27,880 nucleotides of DNA from a virus. A program made the translations under genes and the position numbers. The DNA lies in the IMG/VR virus record IMGVR_UViG_3300032242_002494, positions 1 to 27,880 of that record. One strand, written 5' to 3'. Shown here piece after piece: positions 730-23,600 of the stretch. Each line of letters starts with the position of its first letter. Within the stretch, counting starts at the first letter, position 1. Below the pieces are notes generated by a model. It saw only the letters and a list, made by a program, of their open reading frames with translations. It had not been told where the DNA came from and did not search any database.

Positions 730-3636
730 ATGCAAGAGGTTATCTCTCAGGAAGTTATTGAAAGCTTTCTAAATGGTGGTGACGATGAAATGTACATCGT
801 TGGTATCGAATACGATTATCCATCAAATACAATTTACAAAATTATACAAGACCCTGAAAAGGGAAAAATTATTAAACCGGATACTTCATTTACTCCATTT
901 ATATGGGTTGGTGATTTATCGGAAATGAATTTTTATAATGATTCAAAATCCCTTCAAAAGAAAAGAATGGGTGAGTATGGAATTATTATAGAAAAACTAG
1001 AAACTCACGGGAATGAAAGATTAGAAGCAGGTATGAAATACTTAGTCAAGAGTATTAAATCATATACTGACTTAGTATCTTTTTTTAGACAAGGCGGATT
1101 GAATCCGTGGGATGAAAAATGTAGACATTTATTTACAGTATTAAACCCCGTAGAACAATATCTAATACAAAAGAAAAAAAGATTATTTAAAGGTATTGAT
1201 GAATATTCAGGTGTACATAGATTTGTATTCGATATTGAAACAACTGGTCTTGAACCAGAAAAATGTAACATCATTCTTATTGGAGTTAAAGATAATCGTG
1301 GTTTACAAAAAACAATTCCAGCATTTGGTGAGGATGGTGAAAAAAAATGTATTGAAGAATTTTTTAAAATTATACGTGAATTAAAACCTACAATTATTAG
1401 TGGTTATAACTCAGCATTTTTTGACTGGCCTTTTATTTTAAAGAGAGCACAAATTTTAGGTGTTGATGTTGATGGTTTAACACAAATTTTTACATCTCAA
1501 GGAATGAAAGAAAAAGAGGGTATGTTAAAACTTGCAAACGAAGTTGAGCCATACTCACAACATATTATATGGGGATTTAATATTATTGATATTGCTCATT
1601 CAGTTAGAAGAGCTCAGGCAATTAATTCTGAAATTAAATCTTGGGGATTAAAATATATTACCAAATATTTGGAGAAAGAAAAACCTAATCGTGTGTATGT
1701 TGAAGGTAGTAAAATATCAAAAATATATCTAGAGAATGAAAGTTATTATGCAAATCCAAAAACAGGAAATTATAAATTAATTGGTGAACCTGGTACAGAA
1801 AACTTGTTAGAAAAATATCCTGGTAAATTTGAAATATGGACAGGTAGAAAAATTGTCGAACAATATCTTGATGATGACTTGTATGAAACAATGATTGTTG
1901 ATGATTCATTTTCACAATCAACATTTTTATTATCTAAAGTCGTACCTACAACATATGAGAGAATTGCAACTATGGGTACAGCAACTTTGTGGAAAGTTAT
2001 TATGTTAGCGTGGTCATATGAAAATGGATTAGCAATACCAGCAAAAGATGAGAAGAGAGCAATTACAGGAGGTTTATCAAGATTATTAAATGTTGGTTAT
2101 TCAAAGAATATTGTAAAGTTTGACTTTGCCTCACTTTATCCATCAATACAATTAGTGTATGATGTATTTCCTGAATGTGATGTAATGGGTGTACAGAAAT
2201 CAATGTTAAAATATTTCCGTAATATTCGTATCAAGTATAAAAGATTGGCTGGTGAGTTAGCAAAAACAAATCCTGTTGAAGCTGAAATGTATGATAGAAA
2301 ACAATTACCGATTAAAATTTTTATTAATGCTTATTTTGGTAGTTTATCAGCTCCACATGTATTTCCTTGGGGTGATATGAACATGGGTGAAACAATTACT
2401 TGTGTGGGTAGACAATGTCTTCGTATGATGATTATGTTTTATATGAAGAAAGGATATAAGCCTTTGGTTATGGATACGGATGGTGTTAACTTTGAAACAC
2501 CTGATGATATTAATGAACATATTTACATAGGCAAAGGTTTAAACGAGTTAGTTATCGAAGGACAAGAATACAAAGGTATTGAAGCTGATACCGCAGAATT
2601 TAACGATATCTTTATGAGAAATGAAATGGGTTTAGATATAGACTATGTTGCACCTGCTTGTATAAATGTTTCTCGTAAGAATTATATTATTAAATTGATT
2701 AAAAAAGGAAAAGAAAAAATTAAATTAACAGGTAATACTATTAAGTCTAAAAAAATGCAACAATATATTGTAGAATTTTTAGATGAAGGATTAAAGCATT
2801 TATTAAATGGTGATGGTTTATCATTTGTTGAATTATATTATGATTATGTAAGTAAAATTTTTAATAAAGAAATTCCATTATCTAAAATTGCTAATAAGTC
2901 TCGTGTAAAACAATCTGTTGAGGAGTATAAAAAACATATAACTAAGACAACAAAATCAGGCTCTTTGATGTCCAGACAAGCACACATGGAATTAATTATA
3001 CAAAATGATTATCCTGCAGGTCTTGGTGATACAATTTATTATGTTAATAATGGAGTTAAAAAATCATCAGGTGATGTTGAGAAAAAAAATAAATGGACAA
3101 AAAAGGAAGTGTTAGAATATCTAGAAAAAAATGGTACTGAAATGCCTAGTGATTATTCAGTCTTAAACATAAATTGTTATATGATACCAGAAAAAGAAAT
3201 TACAAGTAATCCTGATATGACTGGTGATTATAATGTTCCAAGATATTTGAGTGTTTTCAATAAAAGAATTGAACCATTATTAGTAGTATTTAAACCTGAA
3301 ATCAGAGAAGATATTTTAATTGACGACCCAAAAGATAGACAATATTTTACAAAATCACAATGTCAATTAGTTAATGGTTATCCGTTAAAAGAAGAAGGTC
3401 AAGATAAATTAGAAGAAGTAATGACACTATCTGATAGTGAAGTAATTTTTTGGAATAGAGTTCAAAGAGACCCTTACTTTATGTACATGGAAGATAGCTT
3501 AAGTTTAGCAGACCCGTATTGGGTCGATAAAAACAGAAAAGTTGTTGCCATGCAAGAAAATAGTATTGCATCAAATGAAGAAGAAATTATTGAAACTAAT
3601 GGACATGATTATGCTTTTCACGCAATTGAATCTTAA
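730..3636 (+). CDS. 43: DNA polymerase, family B (T4 gp43-like)
   Basis: This is the replicative DNA polymerase with a 3'-5' proofreading domain, 968 residues long (T4 gp43 has 898). Exo I is FDIETTG with D168 and E170. Exo II is SGYNSAFFDWP with N227 and D232. Polymerase motif A is FDFASLYPS with D465. Motif B is KIFINAYFG (K529, N533, Y535, G537). Motif C is MDTDGV with D582 and D584. Motif C carries Gly585 where DTDS is usual. The catalytic aspartates and proofreading acidic residues are present, so the enzyme looks intact. The gene is preceded by a TATTTATA box and a hairpin leader, with no Shine-Dalgarno sequence. It converges on the gp13-like gene with a four-base overlap. No other replisome gene except the SNF2 helicase is seen nearby. 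Confidence 0.96.
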   Translation: MQEVISQEVIESFLNGGDDEMYIVGIEYDYPSNTIYKIIQDPEKGKIIKPDTSFTPFIWVGDLSEMNFYNDSKSLQKKRMGEYGIIIEKLETHGNERLEAGMKYLVKSIKSYTDLVSFFRQGGLNPWDEKCRHLFTVLNPVEQYLIQKKKRLFKGIDEYSGVHRFVFDIETTGLEPEKCNIILIGVKDNRGLQKTIPAFGEDGEKKCIEEFFKIIRELKPTIISGYNSAFFDWPFILKRAQILGVDVDGLTQIFTSQGMKEKEGMLKLANEVEPYSQHIIWGFNIIDIAHSVRRAQAINSEIKSWGLKYITKYLEKEKPNRVYVEGSKISKIYLENESYYANPKTGNYKLIGEPGTENLLEKYPGKFEIWTGRKIVEQYLDDDLYETMIVDDSFSQSTFLLSKVVPTTYERIATMGTATLWKVIMLAWSYENGLAIPAKDEKRAITGGLSRLLNVGYSKNIVKFDFASLYPSIQLVYDVFPECDVMGVQKSMLKYFRNIRIKYKRLAGELAKTNPVEAEMYDRKQLPIKIFINAYFGSLSAPHVFPWGDMNMGETITCVGRQCLRMMIMFYMKKGYKPLVMDTDGVNFETPDDINEHIYIGKGLNELVIEGQEYKGIEADTAEFNDIFMRNEMGLDIDYVAPACINVSRKNYIIKLIKKGKEKIKLTGNTIKSKKMQQYIVEFLDEGLKHLLNGDGLSFVELYYDYVSKIFNKEIPLSKIANKSRVKQSVEEYKKHITKTTKSGSLMSRQAHMELIIQNDYPAGLGDTIYYVNNGVKKSSGDVEKKNKWTKKEVLEYLEKNGTEMPSDYSVLNINCYMIPEKEITSNPDMTGDYNVPRYLSVFNKRIEPLLVVFKPEIREDILIDDPKDRQYFTKSQCQLVNGYPLKEEGQDKLEEVMTLSDSEVIFWNRVQRDPYFMYMEDSLSLADPYWVDKNRKVVAMQENSIASNEEEIIETNGHDYAFHAIES

Positions 3637-4754
3637 ATAATTTCAATAGGGATTGGCATAGCTCTATACTTAAGTGATTTGTTTAAGTTTTCAGCTTCAT
3701 TACCTTTTCTTTCTAATAATTTATCAGGACGTAATCTTTCTAATCGTTGCATTAATTCTTCAACTAATTTAGATTTTTCGTCTTTTGCTTCGGTTAATAA
3801 TGAATTATAATCTAATTTAACTGAACTATCTGGTACTTGAAGGTCTCCTGAGAATTTTCCCCAAATTCTTGCGAGGCCTTCTTTTGAGAATGCTATCAGA
3901 TATTTTCTAACCCAGTTTTGTGCTGGTTTGTTTAAGTTTTCCCATATTAATTGTTCTGTATCAACATCTGAAGGTAGTTTGATAATATCTTTGTGTTTAG
4001 CCAAACATTCATCTCTATCTTTATCATGTGTATCATAATACCAATACCATACTTGATAGTTGTTTGTTACTACATCACCAAAATCAAATTTACCCCCTGG
4101 TGTGTTATGTAAATGGATTAATTTAGTTCCTTCAGGTCCTGCAGTAATTCTATATGTTAAATCTCCACCAATAATTTTGTTTTTTAATTTTCTATCTTGC
4201 ATTCTTAATAATAGGTCAAATGCTGGCATCATAAAATAAGAACCCGCATTACCCATCTGAGCAAATCCACCAATACCACCATAACCTACACCGCCTAATC
4301 CACCAAAACCACCTAGAAATGGGTCAATAATAGAATCTGTTAAAGATGCTCTAGTAAACCATAATAATTCATTTATTTCTCGGCCAGCAGGTATTTGATA
4401 GGTTTGCTGTCCTTTAACAATTGTTATAAAATCTTTTTTCAATTCATTATCACCACCAGCTTGAAGACCCACAATTTTTGAATATGAATAGGTATATTGG
4501 GTTTCATAATCTAGACTACGAGTAGTAAATGCTCTAGTTAAAGATTGATTATCTACGTCTAAACCAGCCAAAGCAGACCATTGTGATTCAATTAACCAAT
4601 CACTAACATACTGCTCATACTCAGATAATGAAAGCTCCAAAAATGTATCCATTTGCTCTTCGGTTAATTCAATTCCACGTACTGGCATACCTAATAAATG
4701 GTATACTTGGGTATATAATTTTTCTTTTTGTTCTTGTGTAATAATCTGTGCCAT
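3633..4754 (-). CDS. 13: Neck protein, T4 gp13-like
   Basis: This 373-residue protein begins MAQIITQEQKEKLYTQVYHL. The segment ELTEEQMDTFLELSLSEYEQ is followed by a strand-rich core, and by QTYQIPAGREINELLWFTRA near residues 115-135. The C-terminal half has WVRKYLIAFSKEGLARIWGK, then a Val/Pro-rich turn and a helix (TEAKDEKSKLVEELMQRLER). This matches the gp13 pattern of a YatalIkkqWGxNLsKf segment, then LPGG and EA..E. gp13 joins the portal vertex to the tail through gp14. A glycine-rich loop lies at residues 144-165. The gene is on the opposite strand from its partners gp14 and gp15 and is separated from them by the helicase. It overlaps the polymerase stop by four bases. The assignment rests on motif memory. 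Confidence 0.62.
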   Translation of the reverse strand: MAQIITQEQKEKLYTQVYHLLGMPVRGIELTEEQMDTFLELSLSEYEQYVSDWLIESQWSALAGLDVDNQSLTRAFTTRSLDYETQYTYSYSKIVGLQAGGDNELKKDFITIVKGQQTYQIPAGREINELLWFTRASLTDSIIDPFLGGFGGLGGVGYGGIGGFAQMGNAGSYFMMPAFDLLLRMQDRKLKNKIIGGDLTYRITAGPEGTKLIHLHNTPGGKFDFGDVVTNNYQVWYWYYDTHDKDRDECLAKHKDIIKLPSDVDTEQLIWENLNKPAQNWVRKYLIAFSKEGLARIWGKFSGDLQVPDSSVKLDYNSLLTEAKDEKSKLVEELMQRLERLRPDKLLERKGNEAENLNKSLKYRAMPIPIEII

Positions 4755-4791: not shown

Positions 4792-4986
4792 ATGAATAAA
4801 TCATTATTAGAACTATTCCAATTAGGCGGCAGAAAGAATTACGAGTTTCATTTAAAAATTACGGAGGATAAAACCAACGTAATTACTTTAGATAATGAGA
4901 AAAAAATAATTACAGCAAATATTGGTGATACTGAAGATGAAAATTTAACCAACATAATTGAGGATTTAAAAAAACAATTACAATAA
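4792..4986 (+). CDS. Small hypothetical protein, 64 residues
   Basis: The protein begins MNKSLLELFQLGGRKNYEFH and ends with an amphipathic helix, LTNIIEDLKKQLQ. It is charged and hydrophilic with no signal peptide or membrane segment. It is the only plus-strand gene between two minus-strand genes. It shares a 37-base divergent region with the gp13-like gene, and its last nine bases overlap the end of the helicase. Its upstream region has the host-type TTTG/TAnnTTTG element, which suggests early expression. I do not recognise the family. That it is a real gene is supported by tight packing against neighbours and the promoter match, not by homology. Confidence 0.55.
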   Translation: MNKSLLELFQLGGRKNYEFHLKITEDKTNVITLDNEKKIITANIGDTEDENLTNIIEDLKKQLQ

Positions 4987-6729
4987 TTGTTTAATAAAAT
5001 CTTTACTGAAGGATTCTGAATATTCACCATCTCCCATTACTTGGTCAATTACACCTTTCTTTTTTTGCAATATATTGTAAATTACTTTTTCTATGGTATT
5101 TTCAAAAATTGGATAATAAACCAAAACGCTATTTTTTTGTCCGTATCTGTAAGCTCTATCCTCTCCTTGTGAGTGGTCGGCAGGTACAAAAGATAAATCG
5201 TTCATAATTACAACTTCAGCGGCAGTTAATGTAATACCGACTCCAGCAGCTTTAATGTTTCCAATGAAAATTTTTATTTTGTCTTCATTTTGAAATTTAT
5301 CAACAGCCTCTTGTCTTCTATCTTTAGACATACGACCATCTAATGTTACTGAATTTTTTTTATATTTTTCATGCAACATATCTAATGTCATTGTAAAGTT
5401 AGTTAATATGATTACCTTTTTTCCTTGCTCTAAACATCTATCAATTAATTCACATGTATATGGTATTTTTTCATATGAGATTAATTGTCTAACCTTCATT
5501 AAACGATTAAGTGTTACTGATAATGTTTCTTTATCTTTATTATCGTTACTTATTCTTGTAAAGTCATCCATTTCCTCTTCATACATTTTACTAGATAATT
5601 CAACAAAAATTGGTGTTACAATTTTTTCTGGTAAATCTAATATGTCGGTTTTCATTCTTCTTAAGACATATGATTTTGTCTGCTCACGTAATTCGTCTAA
5701 ATTACTTGCTCCACTCGTATTCCAAACTTTTCTATTACCAACTTTAAATTGAAACCCTTTACAATATCTTCTTACGTATGATTGCCAATTCAATGTTAAC
5801 GGAGAGTCTACAATCTTTAATAAGTTAAAATAATTTATTGGTCTTGATGTCATTGGTGTACCGGTTAACAACCAAACTTTTTTAATTTGGTCTAAAACAT
5901 CATTTAGTAAACGAGTTCTTTGTGCGGTATTATTTGAAATATAATGCGCTTCATCAACAATTGCTAAATCAAATCCGGCATTTACTAATAATTTATAATC
6001 ATCACTATCTTCTGACTTATCTGTTGTATGATAATTTTTTATAATGTCATAATTGATTATATAAAAATCAAATGTTGATCCCCACTTACGACCTTCAACT
6101 ATTAATGTTTTCCTATCACTATAATTTTTAATTTCTCTTTCCCAATTTATTTTAAGTGATGCAGGACATACAATTAATATTTTTTTAGCACCGCTTTCTA
6201 ATGCAGCAATAACTGCAGATGTTGTTTTACCAAGACCCATATCATCGGCAAGAATAAACTTATCATTTGCTAATAGTTTTTCTATCGCTACCTTTTGATG
6301 TTCCATGGGTGGTCTTGTTGAATAGGTGGTATAATCTATTATTCTATCAAGTTTTTTTTCAGGTTGAATTACTGCTGCTTTAGGTAACCACATTGCATGG
6401 TTTTGTTCTTTTTCAAATAGTTTACCCCAAATATGAAACGCTTTATCGCTTTCACATAATAATTTTTCACACCATATTTGCTCAGGTGTGGTTGTTAATA
6501 ATTTATCTTCTCTTAATTTTTCACCAAATGTATTTGCTATTTGAATATATTTTTTAGCAACTTTTGGAGTTGTGTCTTTGTATTTTATAACATATTCGGC
6601 TTGAGGTCGAGTAAGTTTAAAATTTTTTATATCATTAAATTTGTTCTTATATTCTAGCAAAACATTATTAGACCCTTCATAATTTTCTAATATCATTCTT
6701 GCTTCTACTTCTGGTATCTTAATTTCCAT
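4978..6729 (-). CDS. SNF2-family DNA helicase/translocase
   Basis: This 583-residue superfamily 2 ATPase is of SNF2 type, closest in style to SMARCAL1-like annealing helicases. Walker A is DDMGLGKTT (residues 162-170), motif II is DEAH (259-262) and motif III is LTGTP (288-292). Motif V is GVGITLTAAE and motif VI is QGEDRAYRYGQ (521-531), equivalent to the SNF2 QxxDRxxRxGQ. The N-terminal 140 residues hold no recognised domain. It probably remodels or anneals forked DNA in replication and repair, a role UvsW fills in T4. The start is the ATG at 6729; a TTG two codons earlier is less likely. The frame ends by overlapping the small plus-strand gene by nine bases. All core ATPase motifs are intact. 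Confidence 0.92.
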   Translation of the reverse strand: MEIKIPEVEARMILENYEGSNNVLLEYKNKFNDIKNFKLTRPQAEYVIKYKDTTPKVAKKYIQIANTFGEKLREDKLLTTTPEQIWCEKLLCESDKAFHIWGKLFEKEQNHAMWLPKAAVIQPEKKLDRIIDYTTYSTRPPMEHQKVAIEKLLANDKFILADDMGLGKTTSAVIAALESGAKKILIVCPASLKINWEREIKNYSDRKTLIVEGRKWGSTFDFYIINYDIIKNYHTTDKSEDSDDYKLLVNAGFDLAIVDEAHYISNNTAQRTRLLNDVLDQIKKVWLLTGTPMTSRPINYFNLLKIVDSPLTLNWQSYVRRYCKGFQFKVGNRKVWNTSGASNLDELREQTKSYVLRRMKTDILDLPEKIVTPIFVELSSKMYEEEMDDFTRISNDNKDKETLSVTLNRLMKVRQLISYEKIPYTCELIDRCLEQGKKVIILTNFTMTLDMLHEKYKKNSVTLDGRMSKDRRQEAVDKFQNEDKIKIFIGNIKAAGVGITLTAAEVVIMNDLSFVPADHSQGEDRAYRYGQKNSVLVYYPIFENTIEKVIYNILQKKKGVIDQVMGDGEYSESFSKDFIKQLL

Positions 6730-6775
6730 ATACAATATATATAAAAATATAGTTAAATAGATTGTAACATTAAAC

Positions 6776-12154: not shown

Positions 12155-12643
12155 ATGGCTGATTTATTAATGAAAATGCCGGTTCCATATGAACCAAAAC
12201 GAACCAACCGATTTATCGTTAGATTTCCTTCTACTTTAGGTATAAACGAATGGTATGTAACATCTGCAAGTAGACCTAGTGCAAAAATCAAATCAGTAGA
12301 AATACCTTTTTTAAATACGAAAACTTACGTAGCAGGTATGTTCGAATGGAATGAGATTAAAGTTAAATTTAGAGACCCAATTGGTCCTTCAGCTGCTCAG
12401 GCATTAATGGAATGGTTCCGTCTTCATGCAGAATCAGTAACAGGTCGTATGGGATATGCTGCTGGTTATAAAAAAGATATAGAATTAGAAATGTTAGACC
12501 CAACAGGAGTAGTTGTTGAAAAATGGTTACTTGAAGGTTGTTTTATTACTGATTTAAACTTTGGTGAATTAGATTATTCAAGAGATGATTTAGCTAATAT
12601 TGATTGTTCATTAAGAATGGATAGATGTATTTTAATATACTAA
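12155..12643 (+). CDS. 19: Tail tube protein (T4 gp19-like)
   Basis: This protein of 162 residues (T4 gp19 has 163) forms hexameric rings of the inner tube under the sheath. The start PVPYEPKRTNRFIVRFP, then WYVTSASRPS and SVEIPFLNTKTYVAGMFEWN follow the gp19/T4-type tube pattern. Further on come VKFRDPIGPSAAQALMEWF, the DIELEMLDPTGVVVEKWLLE strands and the GCFITDLNFGELDYS segment. No truncation or insertion is apparent. The gene lies between its own promoter-like box and a strong terminator, which fits a highly and separately expressed structural protein. Confidence 0.93.
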   Translation: MADLLMKMPVPYEPKRTNRFIVRFPSTLGINEWYVTSASRPSAKIKSVEIPFLNTKTYVAGMFEWNEIKVKFRDPIGPSAAQALMEWFRLHAESVTGRMGYAAGYKKDIELEMLDPTGVVVEKWLLEGCFITDLNFGELDYSRDDLANIDCSLRMDRCILIY

Positions 12644-12665
12644 TATTATAATTTTTTTATATGTG

Positions 12666-12697
12666 AAACCGATTCTAGAAATAGAGTCGGTTTTTTT
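12666..12697 (+). terminator. Intrinsic terminator after the tail tube gene
   Basis: AAACCGATTCT (12666-12676) pairs with AGAGTCGGTTT (12683-12693), with one T-G wobble, across a six-base loop (AGAAAT). The final T run continues for seven bases in total. It ends 47 bases before the next ATG (12744). Confidence 0.88.
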
Positions 12698-12743: not shown

Positions 12744-13493
12744 ATGAGTGATTTTAGATTAGACCCAACAATAGCTTACGATGTAATACCCTTACCAAGT
12801 CAGGGGATATATTATCCAAATAAGAAAAAAAATATTAAAGTAGCATTTTTAACAGCATCAGATGAAAATATTTTATCGTCTCCGAGTTTAATTGCTAGTA
12901 ATTTGGTTGTAGATGAATTGTTAAAAAGAAAAGTGTTGGACAAAGATATAAATGTTGAAGATATAGTAGAAGAAGATAGACAAGCAATTTTATTTTTTTT
13001 AAGAAATACTGCATTTGGTAGTGATTACGAGGTAACAACAATTGATCCTAAAACTTCTGATTCATTTACTACAAAAGTTGATTTAAGTAATATAAAAATT
13101 AAAGATTTTACACTAAAAGAAGATGTAAATGGTGAATATGAATTTTATTTTCCTGTATCTAAATTTCCAATCACATTTAATTTTTTAACAAAAAAACAAG
13201 AAGACGAATTAAAAAAAATTGAAGATAGTTGGAATGGTAATGGAGTTGCACCAATTAAAACTAAAGAATTAGAATTTTTAATAAAATCAATTAATGGTAT
13301 TAAAGACCCCATGCAATTGAAGAATTTTATTGAAAAAATGCCAATACGTGATTCACAAGAATTTAGAAAATTTGTTAAAGAAAATAAACCAGGCTTAGAT
13401 TTAAGCCAAAAAGTAATAGCCCCATCAGGAGAAGAAGTCCAAGTTTCTATTGGATTTGGGGTTGAATTTTTTCGCCCTTTCTACGGCATATAA
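12744..13493 (+). CDS. gp26-like baseplate-hub/tail-assembly protein
   Basis: This 249-residue protein of the T4 baseplate family (PF12322; gp26) has N-terminus IPLPSQGIYYPNKKKNIKVA. It contains the near-invariant Ser19 and Gly21, then LTASDENILSSPSLI. The centre has a TIDPKT...VDLSNIKIKDFTLK strand pair. A helical C-terminal region follows, and the last residues, GFGVEFFRPFYGI, match the usual hydrophobic FFxP ending, so the stop at 13493 looks natural. The start is ATG 12744; a TTG three codons upstream is less likely. The gene lies between tube and tape measure, the position of tail assembly chaperones in many tailed phages. Its 3' end overlaps a small +1-frame ORF. A chaperone role is inference. 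Confidence 0.65.
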   Translation: MSDFRLDPTIAYDVIPLPSQGIYYPNKKKNIKVAFLTASDENILSSPSLIASNLVVDELLKRKVLDKDINVEDIVEEDRQAILFFLRNTAFGSDYEVTTIDPKTSDSFTTKVDLSNIKIKDFTLKEDVNGEYEFYFPVSKFPITFNFLTKKQEDELKKIEDSWNGNGVAPIKTKELEFLIKSINGIKDPMQLKNFIEKMPIRDSQEFRKFVKENKPGLDLSQKVIAPSGEEVQVSIGFGVEFFRPFYGI

Positions 13494-13623
13494 AAAATCT
13501 CAACTAGATGAGATTTTATTTTTGGTTCAAAAAGGATTTACTTATAATGATATTCTATCAATGCCAATTTATTTAAGAAGGTATTTTATAAATTACATGC
13601 TAGAAGCACAAAATTCAGATTAA
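13462..13623 (+). CDS. Overlapping 53-codon gp51-like ORF, TTG start or frameshift product
   Basis: This frame is +1 relative to the gp26-like gene and overlaps its last 32 bases. It has no ATG before position 13561. It is open from 13420, just after TAATAG, to the TAA at 13621. TTG codons at 13450, 13456 and 13462 could start it; from 13462 it reads MNFFALSTAYKK. It then gives LVQKGFTYNDILSMPIYLRR and YFINYMLEA. The GFTYxDxxxMPIxLRRxxI pattern is one I associate with small proteins beside the tape measure in T4-like phages, some annotated gp51-like. Alternatively it is made as a fusion by +1 slippage at GGGG (13458) or TTTTTTC (13467), giving a 292-residue protein. The coding nature is well supported; how it is started is not. 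Confidence 0.65.
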   Translation: MNFFALSTAYKKSQLDEILFLVQKGFTYNDILSMPIYLRRYFINYMLEAQNSD

Positions 13624-13638: not shown

Positions 13639-15522
13639 ATGAATTATAAAAAAGTTGCTTCTCAATTAGCAAAAGCTAATCCAAATAGAACTGCAGCGTT
13701 AAAAGCACTTGATGATTTAAATCTTCCACCTACAGATGCTACTGGAGTAAAGGGACAATTGATGTTATTGAACGACCCAACTGATTTTGGTGGTAAATCG
13801 TCAAATAGTAATTCATCAAACAATTCACCTTCAAGTCCATTTGAACAGCTATATAAATCAAATCAAGGTACGTCTTTAATAGCTAATTTACCTGAAGATG
13901 AAAATGTAAAAGGAGGATTTGCTGGATTATTTGAAATTAATAATTTACACTCAGAAATTGTTAAACAAATTCAAAGAGAATCTAATTTACAAACACAATT
14001 AAACGAAAAAGTTGGTTTAACAGGCGAATTATCAAATGCATTTCAAAAGGACATTTTAAAGACTATACCATCAGCAGTAAGTTTAGGTTATAGTTTTGCA
14101 AATGTTACAGAAATGCTTACAAGGATGGGAGAACAATCTGGTAGATTTAATCTTATATCAGAAGAAACATTACAAAATTCATACGCAGTTGGTAGAGCAT
14201 TTGTTGGAGACTTAGCAAATTTAGCTCAAACGTTTACTGAATTTGAAAAAATAGGTAAAGGTGCTTATGATACATTAGCAGCAATTAGTAAAGCTGGTTC
14301 AGCATCATTAAGTTTAGGTTTAAATTCTAAAAAAACAACAGAATTACTTAGAGAAAATATTGGTAAATTAAATGAATATGGATTCAAAAATGGCGTAGAT
14401 GGTTTAAATAGAATGGTTCAAAGGTCTATTGAATTTAGAATGAATTTAGGTGAAGCATTTAAAGTGGCTGACAATGTAATGGACCCTGAAAAAGCAATAG
14501 CATTAACTGCAAATTTACAAGTTTTGGGTGGTGCAATAGGAGATTTTAACGACCCATTAAAATTGATGTATATGGCCACGAATAATGTGGAGGGGTTACA
14601 AAAAGCATTAATTGATGCCGCTAAAGGATTGGCAACATATAATGCGGAGCAAGGTAGATTTGAAATTATTGGTGTTAATACAAGAAGAGCGCATGAAATG
14701 GCGGCTCAATTAGGTGTTGATTATAATGAATTAACTAAAGGAGCTATTGCAGGTCAAGAAAGAATGTTAGCTAATTCCGTATTGATGGCGAAAGGATTTA
14801 ATGTATCAAAAGAAGATAAGGAGTTTATTACTAATATGTCACAAATGAAAGGCGGACAAATGGTAGTAACAATACCAGAAGATGTTGCTGGTAAGATAGG
14901 TTCTAAAACTGAAATAGCGTTAAAAGATTTAACAGCTTCACAAATTGAAGCGTTAAAAGGCGTAAAAGAGCAATTAAAAGAAAAAACACCCGAACAAATA
15001 GCTAGAGGTCAATTTACATCAATTCACAATATTGAAATGATGTTACAAGGAATTTACAGAACTGTTGTAACAGATGTAAAAAATTTAACATATGGAGAAA
15101 AAGGAATAGTTGATATAAAAGCAATTGCAGATAGATTACAACCTAATGTAAAACAAGCATTTTTAACTGCAAATCAACAATTGCCAGAATTCCAAAAATA
15201 TGTAGGAGGTCTTTTTGATACAGTAAAAGGAGGATTAACGCAATTAACTGGTCCATTTGCAACACAATTTGAAAATGTCACAAATGAAGCAATAAATAAA
15301 TTTATATCAGTATCAGCAAAAGCCAATCCAGGTCAATTCGAAGAACAATATATGAAGTTAATGGATCAATTTAGCACATGGTTCCAACAAAGCAGAAATA
15401 ATAAATTTATTAAAGGAGCATCTATACAAAATAAGTTAACCATAGTAGACCAATCTAAAGGTAGTAAAGGTTATCTTTTAAATCAAACTAAGAATGCATA
15501 TATTGATGATGGTATTGATTAG
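13639..15522 (+). CDS. Probable tail tape-measure protein
   Basis: The product has 627 residues and is almost wholly helical. The first 90 residues hold a Ser/Asn-rich flexible stretch (about 55-70). After that come long helices such as LSNAFQKDILKTIPSAVSLG, MLTRMGEQSGRF and EFEKIGKGAYDTLAAIS, plus Gly/Ala-rich segments. Position between the gp26-like/small-ORF pair and the baseplate genes is the canonical tape-measure slot. In other phages this protein fills the tube and sets tail length. By the usual 1.5 A per residue, 627 residues would suit a tail of roughly 94 nm. No catalytic motif is seen. An alternative is a gp29-like hub component. The call relies on position and composition. Confidence 0.55.
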   Translation: MNYKKVASQLAKANPNRTAALKALDDLNLPPTDATGVKGQLMLLNDPTDFGGKSSNSNSSNNSPSSPFEQLYKSNQGTSLIANLPEDENVKGGFAGLFEINNLHSEIVKQIQRESNLQTQLNEKVGLTGELSNAFQKDILKTIPSAVSLGYSFANVTEMLTRMGEQSGRFNLISEETLQNSYAVGRAFVGDLANLAQTFTEFEKIGKGAYDTLAAISKAGSASLSLGLNSKKTTELLRENIGKLNEYGFKNGVDGLNRMVQRSIEFRMNLGEAFKVADNVMDPEKAIALTANLQVLGGAIGDFNDPLKLMYMATNNVEGLQKALIDAAKGLATYNAEQGRFEIIGVNTRRAHEMAAQLGVDYNELTKGAIAGQERMLANSVLMAKGFNVSKEDKEFITNMSQMKGGQMVVTIPEDVAGKIGSKTEIALKDLTASQIEALKGVKEQLKEKTPEQIARGQFTSIHNIEMMLQGIYRTVVTDVKNLTYGEKGIVDIKAIADRLQPNVKQAFLTANQQLPEFQKYVGGLFDTVKGGLTQLTGPFATQFENVTNEAINKFISVSAKANPGQFEEQYMKLMDQFSTWFQQSRNNKFIKGASIQNKLTIVDQSKGSKGYLLNQTKNAYIDDGID

Positions 15523-15561: not shown

Positions 15562-18500
15562 ATGCCATATTATTTAGATTTTGATAGCACAAAAAATTTT
15601 AGAGATAAATTATTAGCAAGAACTTTGGACCCAATTTATGGTAATTCACCATCTCCAAAAACTTTTAATAATAAAAGTTATAGTGAACAAAATTTAAGTG
15701 ATTTACCCAATATTTTACAACCAGCTGTTGATACAAATAGATTAGATGAACTTACAAGTATTGCAACTAGTAATGTTTATAAACCAAACGAATACTCAGT
15801 AAAAGATACATTAATAGATTTACCAAGAAGAGCAAATTTAAGTTTGTATCCATATTTTATAAAATCGGATGAGAATTTGATTAGTATTATGGCTACTAAT
15901 TCATATAACACTGAATCTGAACTTTTTAAATTTGCTGCAAAATATATACAACAAGATCCAAATGGTCCAGTATTAGCTAGAATACAACAAAATTTATATT
16001 CAGCAACAACAGCAAAGGTTAGGATTGCTGATGCACTTGAAGGTAATTTTGTGACATTACAAGCCATTTTAAGAGGTAGAGAACCACTTGTGGAAGGTAA
16101 TAACAAAATTACAGTATCAAGCTCAATTTTAGGTAAGGGAATTGATTTTTTGGGTACTGTGGCTGGTACTCAGTTACCTTGGTCTGAAATATCCGGTGAT
16201 TATTTAACTAATCCTAGAAATCCAATTAATGTAAGACCTACAAATGTATCTAACGCAACTAAAATATGGCAAGATTTAACAGGTGTTTTAGGCTCAGTAA
16301 TAGGTATTCAGAGAAGACCATTACCAACTAGAAAACCATCTGATATTTTAATTCAAAGTACTGGTAATTCAACATTAGCAAGATTATACGATGCATTATC
16401 ATATAATGATTATGCACCCAACTATACAACAACTGCAAGATCTCAACAAAGTAGTAAACTTTTTAATTATCCAAATCAATTTGCACAGGGAGTAAAAAAT
16501 TTAATTGGAATGGAAGCACCAGCTGGTATTGCATATATTGGAGATGATAGGTCTCACGATGTTAAAAATGCTATGAGTGATTTATTATCAGGAAGACCAG
16601 TTCGTAGTCCATATTATCTTTCATTAATGTTTGACCCAATATCAACTGAGTTATTTCATAATGATAAAAATACAATGGACCAAGGTAGATTGGATGGTAG
16701 TCTAACTTGGATTAGTAAAAAAACAAGTAATAAATATAATAAAAATGCAATACAAGGTGGGGAATCGTTTAATTATTCTGGTTCTTTTAGACCTGACTCT
16801 ATTTTATACACAACACAGGATATTTTAGATAGTGTTCCAAGTAATGGTGCCGGTGCATTTTCACATATTGGTCATATTATGGACCAAACTAGTAAATTTT
16901 TCGTTGAAGGTTCAAAGTTAGTATCAAGAGGTTCTGCTGTAAAATATACATTAAATGGTAAAGACGTTGGAGCTGAGTTTGCAAGAGTATGGACTAAAGA
17001 CAGACCTTATCGTACATATGGTAGTACAGCACCTTATATTGATGATGTTAATACACCTTATTATAGTGGAGCTACAGGAAACTATTTTAGAAGAAAAAAT
17101 ATAAGAAAATTTGATGGTTCAGTTTTAAGTAATACATGGAATTTAAATATTGCACCTAATTCAGACGGAACTAAAAATTTTACAGATTCCACAAATATAT
17201 CAGACAACTATAAATTTGGTGGCGGTTTTTATGCTAAAAAATATATGTTATCTATTGAAAACTTAGCATGGAAAAACACACATTTACCAGGTTTTACCGT
17301 AAACGATTTACCATATAGTGAAAGAGGTCCTAATGGTGGTAGAGTTATGTGGTTTCCACCATATGATGTAAAAGTAAATGAAGTATCAACTGCTACATGG
17401 GAAAGAAATAATTTTTTAGGAAGACCCGAACCAATATACACATATCAAAATACAGAAAGAAGTGCAACATTAAGTTTTAAAATTGTTGTTGACCATCCAA
17501 GTATTTTAAATTTACTTGTTAGAGAACATTTTAAAACAATGAGTGATGAACAGGCTGATAACTATATTCATTCTTTTTTTGCTGGTGTAAAAGATGTTGA
17601 TTTTTATAGTTTAATAAGAACCTATGCGAATTTAGATACTAACGATATCACAACAATAAAAAATTATTTAAATTCTAATAGTGACCCAAATCAATTATCA
17701 AGATATAATGTTGGTGTAAGTCCAAAAACAGCAATTAATCCAAATACAACAGATAACTCGAATAATGTAAATTTAAATATTGTTTTAAATTTTGGTAATG
17801 CCGACCCACAACCAACTGAAAAAAGTTTTATGACCGGTGATTATTATGCTGCAATTAATAAAGAGTTATTATTGAAAAAAAGTAAAATTATTGAAGATTT
17901 AAATACTGGAATGGATACAATAATAACTGGTACAGATGAAAAAAGTGTAAGCGATAGAAAATTATTATTTGGTACTGTAAATGCTACAGCAGATAGTAAA
18001 CCAAATATAGTTACAAAATTAAGTGATTTAATTGATACTTCTACTAATAATTTTAGTACGTTGTTATCACAATTAGAATCATTAAAAACGGAACTTAATA
18101 ATAATATTGTAAAAAATGATGTAATAATAAAAATAGGTTCATCATCATCACATACATGTGATTTTGATATTACAAATGGATTTAATTATTCTTTATCTGT
18201 TAGACGTGCATATTCTGTACTTTTATCTATTATAGCAAAAATTAATGTAAGTACAAATAAAGAATCAGATATCTTATCAAAGAATTGGTCTGAAACTGCA
18301 AATTCTGATGCTTCAGGATATGAGCACTATATAATTAATGCTTCAATACCATTAGAAGATTTGGGTTATAAAGGTAATAATAATTCATTAATTATTAGAA
18401 CTATAAGTTATGGCGAAAAAGTACAAAATAATGGTATAGATTGTAGTGCTACTGAATTTAATAATACAAATTTAAAAAGGTCTGCGCCGGTAATGTATGG

Positions 18501-20310
18501 TTGTAGAGCTTCAAACGTTACATTATCATACTTCAAAAAAACTACAAATGAAACAACAGCTGGTAACAATACAAAAACACCAACTCAAATTATAATCAAT
18601 AATATACAAGGTCAAAATCAAAAACCACCACTTGAAGAAATGAAGAAGATAATTATGAAAACATTATCTGAACAATATTATTTCAAGGTATTAAAAGAAG
18701 GAAATCCAATTATATATAATTCATTAAGAGAAAAACTAAAATATTTTCATCCAACTTTTCATTCAATGACACCGGAAGGATTAAATGGTAGATTAACGTT
18801 TTTACAACAATGTTTAAGACCGGGTGATACAATACCAGTAAAAGGTGTTGCAGATAATTCTGATATCGGTGCTAGAAATACTACATTTGGTCCACCTCCA
18901 ATTTGTATATTGAGAATTGGTGACTTTTATCATTCAAAAGTTGTAATTAGAGATTTAAATATAAATTTTGATGAAGGTGGGTGGGATTTAAATCCTGAAG
19001 GTATAGGCGTTCAACCGATGATAGCATCTGTACAAATGCAATTAAATTTCATTGGTGGTCAGGGATTAGAAGCACCAGTTGAAAGATTGCAAAATGCATT
19101 ATCATCAAACTTCTATGGTAATACTGAAATGTATGACGAACGTTCAATTAATACAACAACATCTATAAATCTTACAGGTGCCACAGCATATTCAAAAGAA
19201 TTTTTAAATTCACTTAATAATCAAATAGTTAAAAAAGCAGCAACAAAAAATCAAGATGGGACTTCTAAATTTATAGAAGGAAAATATCTAGGAACATTAA
19301 TAACTAATAATGTATTAGGTACATTAGATTATACACCATTAATTACTACAATATATGGTTATACCAAAAATTATTTTATAACTTATAGTGATTTATATAA
19401 TACAATTGCTTCTGAATTTGGTGCTGAATTAGCACCTATGATGATTGACTCAACATATAGACCAGTAAATCAATATAATGTTTCAACACCAACGGGTCCT
19501 ATAACATTAAATTTATTTGGATATATAAATAAATATGATTATAATACTTTAGTTCAATCTGTTAGAAATCAAGTTATGAGTTCAATATCAACAACTGGCG
19601 ATACGATTTCAACAATATTGAATTATACTGATTTGATTTCAGATACGACATTATTATATACAATAAATGAAAATGTAATAAACTATTTTTTACCTTTAAT
19701 AAGTTCAAAATTTGATGAAATTGATAGATATGATTTTAGTCCAATTGAGAAAATAAGATATAAATTAATTAAATCTTTAGATAATCTAAATTATTTAATT
19801 GATAATCAAATCGATATTACAATTTCTGGTGGCACAGCATATAGTGCAACATTAAATAATTTTACAGCACAAGATTTATATGATTCATATAGTGATTGTA
19901 TAACATATATAAACTCACAAAATGAAAAAATGTATAATGATTTAGATGATACGTTTGATTTTACAGATAATCAAATTTGTTGTTTAAATTATCCTGAAAT
20001 TGCTTTAATTCTTGCTAGTTTTTTTAACGATAAAGTAGATGAAATTATGAACATTATTAAAGATACTATGAATCTAGGTGATGAAGACACAACAATCGTG
20101 GAAATAAAAAAGAGAATAAATGTTGTATTAACTAAAAAGAAAACATCAAAAAATTTTAAATTTAGTAAAGCACCAATTAGAAAAAATGAAAAATCTTTAT
20201 CATATAACATATCAGTAATTAACATGGTGGAATTAACAAATACTATGAAACTTTTGTTCTCAAGACAAAATCCAGTAAACAATACTTTAAACTATTATAG
20301 AAATGAGTAG
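15562..20310 (+). CDS. Giant baseplate/tail-tube-junction protein with OmpA-like region
   Basis: The product has 1582 residues. Around residue 597 it has WFPPYDVKVNEVSTATWERN. FLGRPEPIYTYQNTERSATL follows at about 619, a GRxEPxYxY...R pattern like that of T4 gp48/gp54 tail-tube-junction proteins. Residues about 855-990 resemble an OmpA-like peptidoglycan-binding domain: IIKIGSSSSH, LSVRRAYSVL (R881, R882) and a later YGE...CRASNVTLSY. Near 1100 a further structural block holds FGPPPICILRIGDFYHSKVV and GWDLNPEGIGVQPMIASVQM. The gene overlaps the gp53-like gene by eight bases. It follows the tape measure, so a place at the tube-baseplate interface is likely. The exact T4 counterpart is uncertain; it may combine several T4 proteins. 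Confidence 0.55.
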   Translation: MPYYLDFDSTKNFRDKLLARTLDPIYGNSPSPKTFNNKSYSEQNLSDLPNILQPAVDTNRLDELTSIATSNVYKPNEYSVKDTLIDLPRRANLSLYPYFIKSDENLISIMATNSYNTESELFKFAAKYIQQDPNGPVLARIQQNLYSATTAKVRIADALEGNFVTLQAILRGREPLVEGNNKITVSSSILGKGIDFLGTVAGTQLPWSEISGDYLTNPRNPINVRPTNVSNATKIWQDLTGVLGSVIGIQRRPLPTRKPSDILIQSTGNSTLARLYDALSYNDYAPNYTTTARSQQSSKLFNYPNQFAQGVKNLIGMEAPAGIAYIGDDRSHDVKNAMSDLLSGRPVRSPYYLSLMFDPISTELFHNDKNTMDQGRLDGSLTWISKKTSNKYNKNAIQGGESFNYSGSFRPDSILYTTQDILDSVPSNGAGAFSHIGHIMDQTSKFFVEGSKLVSRGSAVKYTLNGKDVGAEFARVWTKDRPYRTYGSTAPYIDDVNTPYYSGATGNYFRRKNIRKFDGSVLSNTWNLNIAPNSDGTKNFTDSTNISDNYKFGGGFYAKKYMLSIENLAWKNTHLPGFTVNDLPYSERGPNGGRVMWFPPYDVKVNEVSTATWERNNFLGRPEPIYTYQNTERSATLSFKIVVDHPSILNLLVREHFKTMSDEQADNYIHSFFAGVKDVDFYSLIRTYANLDTNDITTIKNYLNSNSDPNQLSRYNVGVSPKTAINPNTTDNSNNVNLNIVLNFGNADPQPTEKSFMTGDYYAAINKELLLKKSKIIEDLNTGMDTIITGTDEKSVSDRKLLFGTVNATADSKPNIVTKLSDLIDTSTNNFSTLLSQLESLKTELNNNIVKNDVIIKIGSSSSHTCDFDITNGFNYSLSVRRAYSVLLSIIAKINVSTNKESDILSKNWSETANSDASGYEHYIINASIPLEDLGYKGNNNSLIIRTISYGEKVQNNGIDCSATEFNNTNLKRSAPVMYGCRASNVTLSYFKKTTNETTAGNNTKTPTQIIINNIQGQNQKPPLEEMKKIIMKTLSEQYYFKVLKEGNPIIYNSLREKLKYFHPTFHSMTPEGLNGRLTFLQQCLRPGDTIPVKGVADNSDIGARNTTFGPPPICILRIGDFYHSKVVIRDLNINFDEGGWDLNPEGIGVQPMIASVQMQLNFIGGQGLEAPVERLQNALSSNFYGNTEMYDERSINTTTSINLTGATAYSKEFLNSLNNQIVKKAATKNQDGTSKFIEGKYLGTLITNNVLGTLDYTPLITTIYGYTKNYFITYSDLYNTIASEFGAELAPMMIDSTYRPVNQYNVSTPTGPITLNLFGYINKYDYNTLVQSVRNQVMSSISTTGDTISTILNYTDLISDTTLLYTINENVINYFLPLISSKFDEIDRYDFSPIEKIRYKLIKSLDNLNYLIDNQIDITISGGTAYSATLNNFTAQDLYDSYSDCITYINSQNEKMYNDLDDTFDFTDNQICCLNYPEIALILASFFNDKVDEIMNIIKDTMNLGDEDTTIVEIKKRINVVLTKKKTSKNFKFSKAPIRKNEKSLSYNISVINMVELTNTMKLLFSRQNPVNNTLNYYRNE

Positions 20311-20626
20311 AGATTATTTTGATAGATATCAATTTTTTATAGAAAATGGAACATATAAAGTTGTACCAGGAATACAACTTGACATTAAAGCTACAGACAA
20401 ATATATGATATATAGAAGTGGTATTGATAGATTAGATAAAATATCCCAAGATTATTATGGTTCACCAACATTTGGTTGGTTAATTATGGTTGCAAATCCT
20501 AGCATAACAGGTACGGAATTTGAAATACCTGATAATTCATATGTCAGAATTCCATTTCCTTTAGTTACCTCTTTACAAGATTACAAAAGAGCGGTAGAAT
20601 TGTACAAACTTTATTATGGCGAATAA
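20303..20626 (+). CDS. Baseplate wedge protein, gp53-like (LysM-type)
   Basis: This 107-residue protein begins MSRDYFDRYQFFIENGTYKV. The core is a LysM-like unit: DRLDKISQDYYGSPTFGWLI then MVANPSI and FEIPDNSYVRIPFPL, the usual Y.v..gDtL..IA..yyG.......I..aN......i..G..L.IP order. T4 gp53 is a LysM-fold wedge component of about 196 residues, so this is a short version. The LysM fold in such proteins is structural and need not bind peptidoglycan. The gene overlaps the upstream gene by eight bases and the downstream gene by eleven, which suggests translational coupling in one baseplate operon. Confidence 0.62.
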   Translation: MSRDYFDRYQFFIENGTYKVVPGIQLDIKATDKYMIYRSGIDRLDKISQDYYGSPTFGWLIMVANPSITGTEFEIPDNSYVRIPFPLVTSLQDYKRAVELYKLYYGE

Positions 20627-23600
20627 CAATATAACTGGTAGTGAAAATATACATGTAAAAGTAGATCAAAATAATTTAATATATATTGATCCTAATACTG
20701 TTATATCACCAGATGGTTCGTTATCACCAAGAGGAGTTAAACATGAAGAATTAACTATGTATGTTAATTTAGAAGCAGATTTAGTACCTAGGTCTATATT
20801 AGTTTCAGATAATGATACAAATACTTTAAAATTTGTAGCTGGAGGTAAGTTAAGTTTTTTAAATAATAAAAATAATGTTGAAGGTGTTGAAACTAAAGAT
20901 TATGATACATCATGGACAGATGCATTTGCACCATCATCATTAATAAGTAATAATAATCATACTACTTATGATGCGTCAGCACAAAGTTTTGGTATAGAGC
21001 ACGTCGATATTTCAATAAAGGGTTATAATGCAATTCCTCAAGTCTCTATGCAATTTATTGATGTGAGAGGAAAAACATTATTTGAAGCTGCAGAAGATTC
21101 ACCTTATGCGGCATTTTTTCATGTACCTTGGCCTATATTTTATTTAACAATAAAAGGTTACTATGGTAAAGCTATAAAGTACAGATTACACCTTGTAAGT
21201 TTCAAAACAAAATATAACGACACAAATGGTAATTTTGAAAGCGCCGCTGTGTTTGTTGGTTCAACATATGCTTGGCTATCAGATATTCCTTTACAAGGAA
21301 TATTAAATGCGGCTTATATGTTTCCAATTGAATCTTCAAAAACAAACACAAATGATGGAACTAAATCACAAGAAACAGTTGTAAAATCAACTAGAGGTTT
21401 TAGTTATTTAAAAACTATTTTTAGTGAATATAAAAAAAGTGGACATATATCAGCCAACTTCCCGGTTAAAACTTTAAGAGAAGTTATAACAGCAGCATCA
21501 ACTTTAGATAAAATATTAGAACAAAAAATATTTTCTGAAGTAGTTGATATGAGATTATTTACCGGCATAAAAGAATTTGGTGAAACTCTTGATGAGTTTA
21601 GACAAGCAATTACAGGTTGGGCTAATTTATATTTAGATAAAGCTGCTGGTGTTGCATTAACAAGCAATAATATAGATTATTATTATTTAAGTGATAGTGA
21701 TAAATTTAATACAAAAAATGTTATTGGACTTAAAACACCAGGAACATTACAAAATCTTATAACAAGTTATTCCGAAAAGTTATCAAAGAATGACATATTT
21801 GTAACTAATTTAATAAATCAAACACAAGCAGTTTTTAAAAAAAGAAGTTTTGGTTTAGGTGACATAAGTAAATTTGAATGGAATAGTCAAACTGAACAGA
21901 ATAATTTTTTTCAATTAGAACCATCAGATGACCCTAACTTACAAAAACAACAAGATGCTGGTGAAATAGTTGGTAAAGTTCTAATTGGTATAGACTATCT
22001 TGTTGGTTTAATTGATGATATTAGTAATTTATTTGAAGAGCAAAGAATATTGTTTGAAAATGATGTTGAAGTTGCAATGAATGAATATGTAAAAAGGTCG
22101 GATACTGGATTAGGATTTGAACCAACAATCAAAAATTTATTTGTAATTGTACTTGCAAATGCAGAAGCATTTATAAGATTAATGCAAGATACTCATGCAA
22201 GAGCTATAGAGGTTGCTAGTGAAAGAAGATTGTTTGTAGACAAATATACCAATGAAAATAGTAAAGCAGATATTATTTATCCATGGCCTGAAATTAAAAA
22301 AAGGAATGAGAAAGATAAACAAAACGTTTTAGTATATCCAGGCGACCCTTCAATTAGTAAAACATTATTTGCCGATAATGCAAAATTGTGGCCTGAAGTA
22401 GATTTTGTGGAAAATTTTATTGGTGTTGCAACTAATAAAATAGACTCATTGGCGCCAAAAGAAGGTGGCGTTGGTAAAATTGTTTATAGTTTTAATAACA
22501 ATGAAGACCAAAAAAATATACAAAAGGTGAGCGTAGGGGATTTATTAAGTACTATAGTACCATATTCATCTAAAATACATTCTGATTTTGTTTATGAAAT
22601 TTGGGAAAGGGCATTAAATTATACATTTGTCGATTCATTTGACGATGAAACAATAAAAGAATTGGCAGATAAAGAATATAAAAATATTTTATCATCAATA
22701 CAATATGATGAAGATTTGATTAAATTGGTCAAAGAAAACTTCTTGAGCCAAAATACATTTAGAGATTTATTATATAAATTAGCACCATATGACAAATATT
22801 TTTATTATCTAAGTCAACAACCAACAACAAATTATTTACAAGGATTATATGATAATCCGATAACAATACTACAATATAGAGATAACAAAACTGATTTTGG
22901 TAACTCATTAAAATATTCTAGACTACAAAATTATTTGAGTAATTATAAACCAGAAGCATATAGACAAAATATATTTCCATATAGTTCTCAGGCTTATAAC
23001 AATTATTTTGAAACTAAAAATAGTAGAACATTTTCAAACACAGATTTAGAATTCAATGGGTTTATTAATGTTAACACAAACATTGGATTTATATGTGGAA
23101 AAATTGACCCACAATTTTGGATTAATAAATATTATTCGACAAACATTTTTTTACAAAAATTAAATTTAAATGGTAAGTATACACACATACTTAACACACC
23201 ATATTTTCATAAACAATTGTTTTCAGATTTTGTTGCAAATACTGCTAGAGGAAAATACGCAGGTTCTGCTTATTTACTTTTAAACTCAATTCCATTTGTT
23301 GATTTGGAAGATAATGTAAAATATTCAGGAGAAAACTTTTTAGTATCTTCTTTATTTAGGGAAATTAGTTCTACGCAATCTATACCATATCATTTGATGT
23401 TGAAATGGGGTTCATTATATCATAGATATAAAATTTATAAAACAACGGGTAATGACATATTAAAAGGATTTTTGACCGGAGGAATTACAACGCCAATAGA
23501 TGGTAATACTTTTTTTGATAACAATAGTGGCTTTACATATACAAATGGTTCAGTAACAGGTATAACATATACTGGTGCAACTCATATTGGTGTACATCCA

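Follow-up and report, generated by a model that had tools for sequence, protein, structure and literature searches.

A conserved +1-frame overlap points to programmed frameshifting of a gp26/gp51-type tail assembly chaperone in T4-type phages

Does an open frame that overlaps the end of a phage tail gene encode a separate small protein, a frameshifted extension of its neighbor, or nothing at all? The question is raised by IMG/VR record IMGVR_UViG_3300032242_002494, a T4-type phage fragment whose entire length of 27.9 kb is the window analyzed here, in which a gp26-like gene is overlapped at its end by an open reading frame (ORF) in the +1 frame. The best explanation, to which we assign a probability of about 0.9 on comparative sequence grounds, is that a programmed +1 ribosomal frameshift produces a T4-type tail assembly chaperone (TAC). 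The conservation of the frames, the slippery site, the coding character of the +1 frame, and the homology of the two halves to gp26 and gp51 were all computed. The junction comprises the following features:

12744..13493, plus strand: TAC-N, the short tail assembly chaperone (gp26-like, PF12322/phrog_150), 249 aa with an ATG start, assigned by family matches, relatives, and a structural model
13420..13623, plus strand: +1-frame ORF of 67 codons, with the predicted post-shift part at 13474-13620 forming the TAC-NC extension, assigned by coordinates and homology of the extension
13467..13475, plus strand: putative +1 slippery site TTT TTT CGC, kept across the clade
13419..13462, plus strand: candidate upstream stimulatory stem-loop, with outer arms 13419-13424 and 13457-13462 and inner arms 13438-13442 and 13450-13454

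An earlier reading of this DNA, made from its letters alone (the sequence-only reading), had proposed a frameshifted chaperone at this position, and its description of the layout proved correct. From 13420, directly after TAATAG (13414-13419), the +1 frame stays open up to the TAA at 13621-13623; it carries the motif GFTYNDILSMPIYLRRYFI, its first in-frame ATG lies as late as 13561, and GGGG (13458-13461), TTT-TTT-C (13467-13473), and TTG (13462) are all present. The recomputed length of the fusion is likewise 292 aa.

The suggestion that related phages be aligned over this overlap gave a clear outcome. Forty-seven viral contigs were retrieved with the gp26-like protein as query, including 46 full relatives at 62-93% identity; an open +1 frame overlaps the end of the gene in 46/46 contigs holding that end and runs some 40-45 codons beyond the stop, and GGG GTN GAR TTT TTT CGN CCT TTC TAY GGN is the consensus of all 26 distinct junctions in this set. 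The same relation is present in the more distant Microcystis phage Mel-JY01. Further contigs, gathered by searches with Mel-JY01 and with relatives, brought the combined set to 178 distinct junctions, 176 of which have an open +1 frame. The isolates in the set are Mel-JY01, Flavobacterium phage immuto, Bacillus phage SP-15, Listeria phage LIS04, and Streptococcus phage GXN1. The +1 relation is thus conserved far beyond chance, and chance does not account for this open frame. A search with the single ORF sequence found no family match in Pfam or PHROGs. Low-GC DNA does yield many open frames, but the conservation rules out both an assembly error and an overlap by chance, since the relation recurs in all five isolates and in more than 170 distinct contig junctions, and a third-position bias extends past the stop; we give that explanation practically no weight.

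This bias was quantified in the window's clade, where differences in the +1 frame beyond the gp26-like stop are distributed over the three codon positions as 342/171/728, that is, mainly in third positions. The pattern persists in genomes that have no start codon for at least 28 codons. Synonymous variability in the sister clade, a diverse one, stays close to normal as far as the two Phe (FF) codons; from these codons on it is 0.1-0.4 of expectation, which indicates that double coding starts at the site. The boundary is less clean in the window's clade because of extra constraint upstream of the site.

The conserved element at this boundary is the slip site. TTT TTT CGN CCT is found in 33/33 distinct gp26-like genes of the window's clade, and the 178-junction set contains TTT TTT TGG (125), TTT TTT CGN (29), TTC TTT TGG (9), CTT TTT TGG (3), TTT CTT TGG (3), and single variants; +1 re-pairing is possible in nearly all junctions, by tRNA-Phe on UUU or tRNA-Leu on CUU. 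Of two slip candidates named by the sequence-only reading, TTT-TTT-C is this conserved one. GGG-G at 13458-13461 was excluded as a conserved site, as many relatives in the window's clade read GGG GTA GAR, which places a +1 TAG just upstream of the slip site, where a +1 slip on GGG-G would meet it at once; the same TAG excludes a start upstream of it in those genomes.

The same frame could be reached by a ribosomal slip of -2, for which the six or seven Ts would let tRNA-Phe re-pair two bases back. We consider this very improbable, since TTC TTT TGG (9 junctions), TTC TTT CGT (1), TTT CTT TGG (3), and TTT CTA TTC (1) permit +1 re-pairing and offer no good -2 re-pairing. RNA polymerase slippage on the T run, yielding mRNAs one base short, could also draw on the six or seven Ts present at most sites; at least 14 junctions, however, keep the frame relation with a T run of four or fewer, and what the junctions conserve is a P-site codon able to re-pair and not run length. 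We consider this explanation very improbable as well.

A more serious alternative is that the +1 ORF encodes a separate small protein, translated from TTG 13450, TTG 13462, or another non-ATG codon and coupled to the gp26-like stop. Both TTG codons belong to the +1 frame of the window, an ATG lies four codons past the site in 13 of the 33 clade members, and three distant phages have an ATG of their own for the extension. Against this, 69 distinct junctions lack any ATG, GTG, or TTG from the upstream +1 stop to the site, and therefore have no start codon ahead of the conserved FF residues; in 44 of these 69 none occurs before codon 29 past the site, and many carry a +1 TAG five bases upstream. 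Moreover, the onset of constraint coincides with the slip site and not with a start codon, and the ATG is not conserved. We regard separate initiation as unlikely in the window, and the 53-residue protein from TTG 13462 put forward by the sequence-only reading is disfavored, because in many relatives the conserved residues are not preceded by any start codon.

The distant phages with an ATG of their own are the loci L365 and L371 and the huge-phage relative LR756511 (locus L053). The first two read TTC TTG TAT and TTC CTT TGG CCA, respectively, with the +1 frame closed in both; their extension lies in the -1 frame, with an ATG just past the gp26-like stop, and the slippery motif is gone in L365. 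In LR756511, the extension forms an ORF of its own, from 4783 onward, whose ATG immediately follows the stop of the gp26-like gene. Homologs with a clear start of their own, which the sequence-only reading had named as evidence against frameshifting, therefore do exist in these three, the first two also having lost the +1 relation. That loss, together with the gain of an ATG, fits a +1 frameshift in the remaining junctions, and L365 and L371 can be read as natural replacements of frameshifting by separate initiation. The free-standing extension in all three suggests that some phages can do without a covalent fusion.

Both halves of the predicted fusion belong to the gp26/gp51 family. TAC-N matches PF12322 (E 1.6e-5, above the cut-off) and phrog_150 (E 2.6e-10), and the alignment of the fusion with phrog_150 crosses the junction, covering positions 19-264 of 282 as compared with 19-233 for TAC-N alone. 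PF12322 matches are found in T4 gp26 as well as in gp51, of which gp51 alone also covers phrog_150 at its C-terminal end. In profile comparisons with hhalign, the +1 extensions match the -1-frame extensions of cyanophages and other phages (95.4%, E 1.8e-8), which in turn match the C-terminus of T4 gp51 (90.4%, E 1.4e-6); compared directly with gp51 alone, the +1 set gave no significant match. By profile similarity the +1 extension is thus homologous to the gp51 C-terminus, transitively through the -1 extensions. The proposal that the gp26/PF12322 protein and a gp51-like extension form the T4-type chaperone pair is accordingly backed by conservation, the dual-coding analysis, and profile comparison. 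An AlphaFold2 model of TAC-N alone (pLDDT 87) matches the SP-15 hub protein and models of Aeromonas phage gp26 and T4-like hub proteins; no solved structure was matched by sequence. The two-gene arrangement of T4 was not found, as the 27.9-kb fragment has a single gp26-like match and the complete Mel-JY01 and immuto genomes have one phrog_150 match each.

Under a programmed +1 frameshift, normal translation would give TAC-N, 249 aa, ending in EFFRPFYGI. At GAA UUU UUU CGC, some ribosomes carrying peptidyl-tRNA-Phe at the second UUU would slip by +1 from UUU to UUC, so that the tRNA on P-site TTT 13470-13472 re-pairs on TTC 13471-13473 while the rarely used zero-frame codon CGC (13473-13475) waits in the A site. 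Continued reading in the +1 frame (EFF-ALSTAYKK...) would yield TAC-NC, 292 aa, with the extension that T4 has in gp51, and, by analogy with lambda G/GT, this long form would connect the tail tube with the tape measure. We infer from the comparisons above the frameshifting itself and its efficiency, P-site re-pairing as its mechanism, a stimulatory hairpin, and the role in assembly.

Two elements next to the site may favor slippage. CGC occurs once in the 8575 codons of 14 window genes, precisely at the slip site, and in 0 of 35166 codons in the large ORFs of related loci (L002-L047), and it is the site codon in 26 of 33 distinct clade genes. Apart from the slip site, this Arg codon is almost absent from the phage clade genes examined. 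A hungry-codon role for CGC is likely, with the qualification that dual coding for Ala can also force this codon. Upstream, a stem of ACCCCG and CGGGGT in the clade ends about four bases 5' of TTT TTT. Across 23 sequences 98.6% of cells in this outer stem are paired, with one pair changed in both partners, from G-C to A-U, in five sequences, and its wobble positions are fixed to rarely used codons (GGG in 33/33). The upstream hairpin has a mean z of -2.7 in the clade and -2.0 in the window, and it has no counterpart in the sister clade. On the downstream side, neither clade shows unusual RNA structure (mean z -0.3 and -0.5). The hairpin is therefore a candidate stimulator of frameshifting, in which we claim the outer stem alone; the inner stem was rejected for its inconsistent register across sequences. 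The hairpin loop region contains TCAGGAGA (13425-13432), a perfect Shine-Dalgarno-like sequence that is invariant in 23/23 distinct relatives and has no conserved start codon downstream.

The surroundings of the junction are those of a tail gene region. Family searches of the window (Pfam, PHROGs) identified a tube protein, a sheath, and DNA polymerase B besides the gp26-like gene, and no Rfam family or tRNA was found. The neighboring features are:

12155..12643, plus strand: tail tube protein (gp19-like), the upstream neighbor, phrog_4542 with E 2.7e-27
12665..12694, plus strand: intrinsic-terminator-like hairpin between the tube and chaperone genes, 13 pairs followed by a T tract
13639..15522, plus strand: long downstream ORF, 627 aa, in the tape-measure position, called by position

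The hairpin at 12665-12694 is one of three terminator-like sites in the region, as compared with 0.1 in shuffles, and SP-15 has an annotated terminator at the matching place. The location between tube and tape measure, as originally described, is supported on the tube side by a family match and is putative on the other: the ORF at 13639-15522, called by its position, has no family match in Pfam or PHROGs and no significant match to the immuto tape measure protein. A tape measure annotation is carried by the following long gene in immuto and in LIS04. Elsewhere in the window lie two very long tail-region ORFs at 15562-20310 and 20616-26474 (1582 and 1952 aa), neither with a Pfam or PHROGs match, and, on the minus strand inside the structural gene region, an SNF2-type helicase and a protein of unknown function (4978-6735 and 3633-4754).

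Several points weigh against a programmed +1 frameshift of a chaperone. In-frame +1 start codons are found in many single genomes, the window included. Many of the sequences behind counts such as 176/178 are closely related, so the junction counts are not independent. Dual coding explains part of the codon conservation after the slip, including the preference for CGC, whose +1 codon is GCC (Ala). The downstream gene is a putative tape measure, so called by its position. Finally, no structural match to known TACs was found beyond a weak one to the HK97 chaperone 2OB9, which had the top probability among the 50 Foldseek matches listed (0.21, E 4.1, TM by target 0.50).

The direction of the shift differs among relatives. 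P-SSM2-like junctions have T_TTT_TTC, the extension in the -1 frame, and a closed +1 frame in 63/63 distinct cases, and -1-frame extensions homologous to the +1 extension occur in P-SSM2, S-PM2, HTVC008M, Cr30, phiM12, PhiW-14, phiM9, and KVP40; cyanophage S-TIM5 has no PF12322 or phrog_150 match. KVP40 (locus L156), a member of the Straboviridae like T4, has its -1 extension on the reverse strand at TTT TTC GTA TAA, so not every member of that family has the two genes seen in T4. A tree of TAC-N separates a T4/cyanophage half, with -1 shifts or two genes, from a half containing all +1 members, in which a jumbo-phage -1 group (Atu_ph07, PA5oct, RAS14) is also placed; the tree is unrooted and its long branches make parts unsure, with one or two switches to +1. 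Judged from these sequences, the direction of the predicted shift has switched at least once. A fuller scenario, whose odds we put at about even, is that one gene family reversed its shift direction at a kept Phe-Phe position, with -1 in cyanophages, KVP40, and some jumbo phages, +1 in the mostly uncultured group, and no shift in T4 after the split into two genes, the UUU_CGC site and the conserved upstream hairpin driving +1 in the window's clade.

The apparent use of +1 slippage in a wide group and of -1 in another for one protein pair suggests that T4, whose chaperone pair was explained by two genes in a 2022 paper as cited in PMC10885494, is a derived case. The group with the apparent +1 version is a large one of mostly uncultured T4-like viruses of bacteria. 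Its junctions and their -1 counterparts provide natural sites, matched to one another, at which the determinants of frameshift direction in bacteria can be studied, and they call for annotation correction in immuto, SP-15, and LIS04, where the extension is begun too late or is unannotated.

As in programmed +1 frameshifting, the locus shows a re-pairable P-site codon, a probably slow A-site codon, and dual coding that begins at the site. The +1 frameshift of E. coli prfB (RF2) uses CUU to UUU re-pairing, which the immuto-type TTT CTT TGG would also allow; unlike prfB, the phage sites have no A-site stop codon and no conserved Shine-Dalgarno-like element at the RF2 spacing. The UUU_CGN site of influenza A PA-X and related viral sites (PMC5009743 and its reference 125) are similar in their P-site UUU beside CGN, their +1 direction, and the absence of evident downstream structure, whereas they belong to eukaryotic RNA viruses and another product, and the window represents a phage with a candidate upstream hairpin.

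Among tail assembly chaperones, lambda G/GT (-1) and haloarchaeal myovirus HSTV-2, whose +1 shift was considered "very likely" (PMC5009743), encode a short and a frameshifted long form ahead of the tape measure gene, as the window probably does, with no sequence similarity found to the window protein. As in lambda G/GT, a slippery site is conserved close to the 3' end of the gene and the extension lies in a different frame, whereas the direction is +1, in 176/178 junctions, instead of -1. T4 has been described as the exception to the conserved G-T frameshift (PMC5009743); its gp26 and gp51 share with the window the PF12322/phrog_150 family and a short form plus a long form with a C-terminal extension, but they are two paralogous genes, whereas the window has one gene and a +1-frame ORF. 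Another counterpart is the -1 version in Kyanoviridae (P-SSM2, S-PM2, HTVC008M), KVP40, Cr30, phiM12, and others, which has the equivalent gene, a shift at the terminal Phe-Phe, and a homologous extension, and differs in shifting by -1 at T_TTT_TTC-like heptamers. As cited in PMC10885494 and PMC12846349, Vladimirov et al. 2022 identified a short gene and a longer fused one as those encoding the T4-like chaperones, and PMC12846349 cites the same work for poly-T -1 signals in T4-like phages. Thus, gp26 and gp51 have been known as T4-type chaperones since 2022, whereas the +1 direction, its wide conservation, and the upstream hairpin of the window's clade appear to be new.
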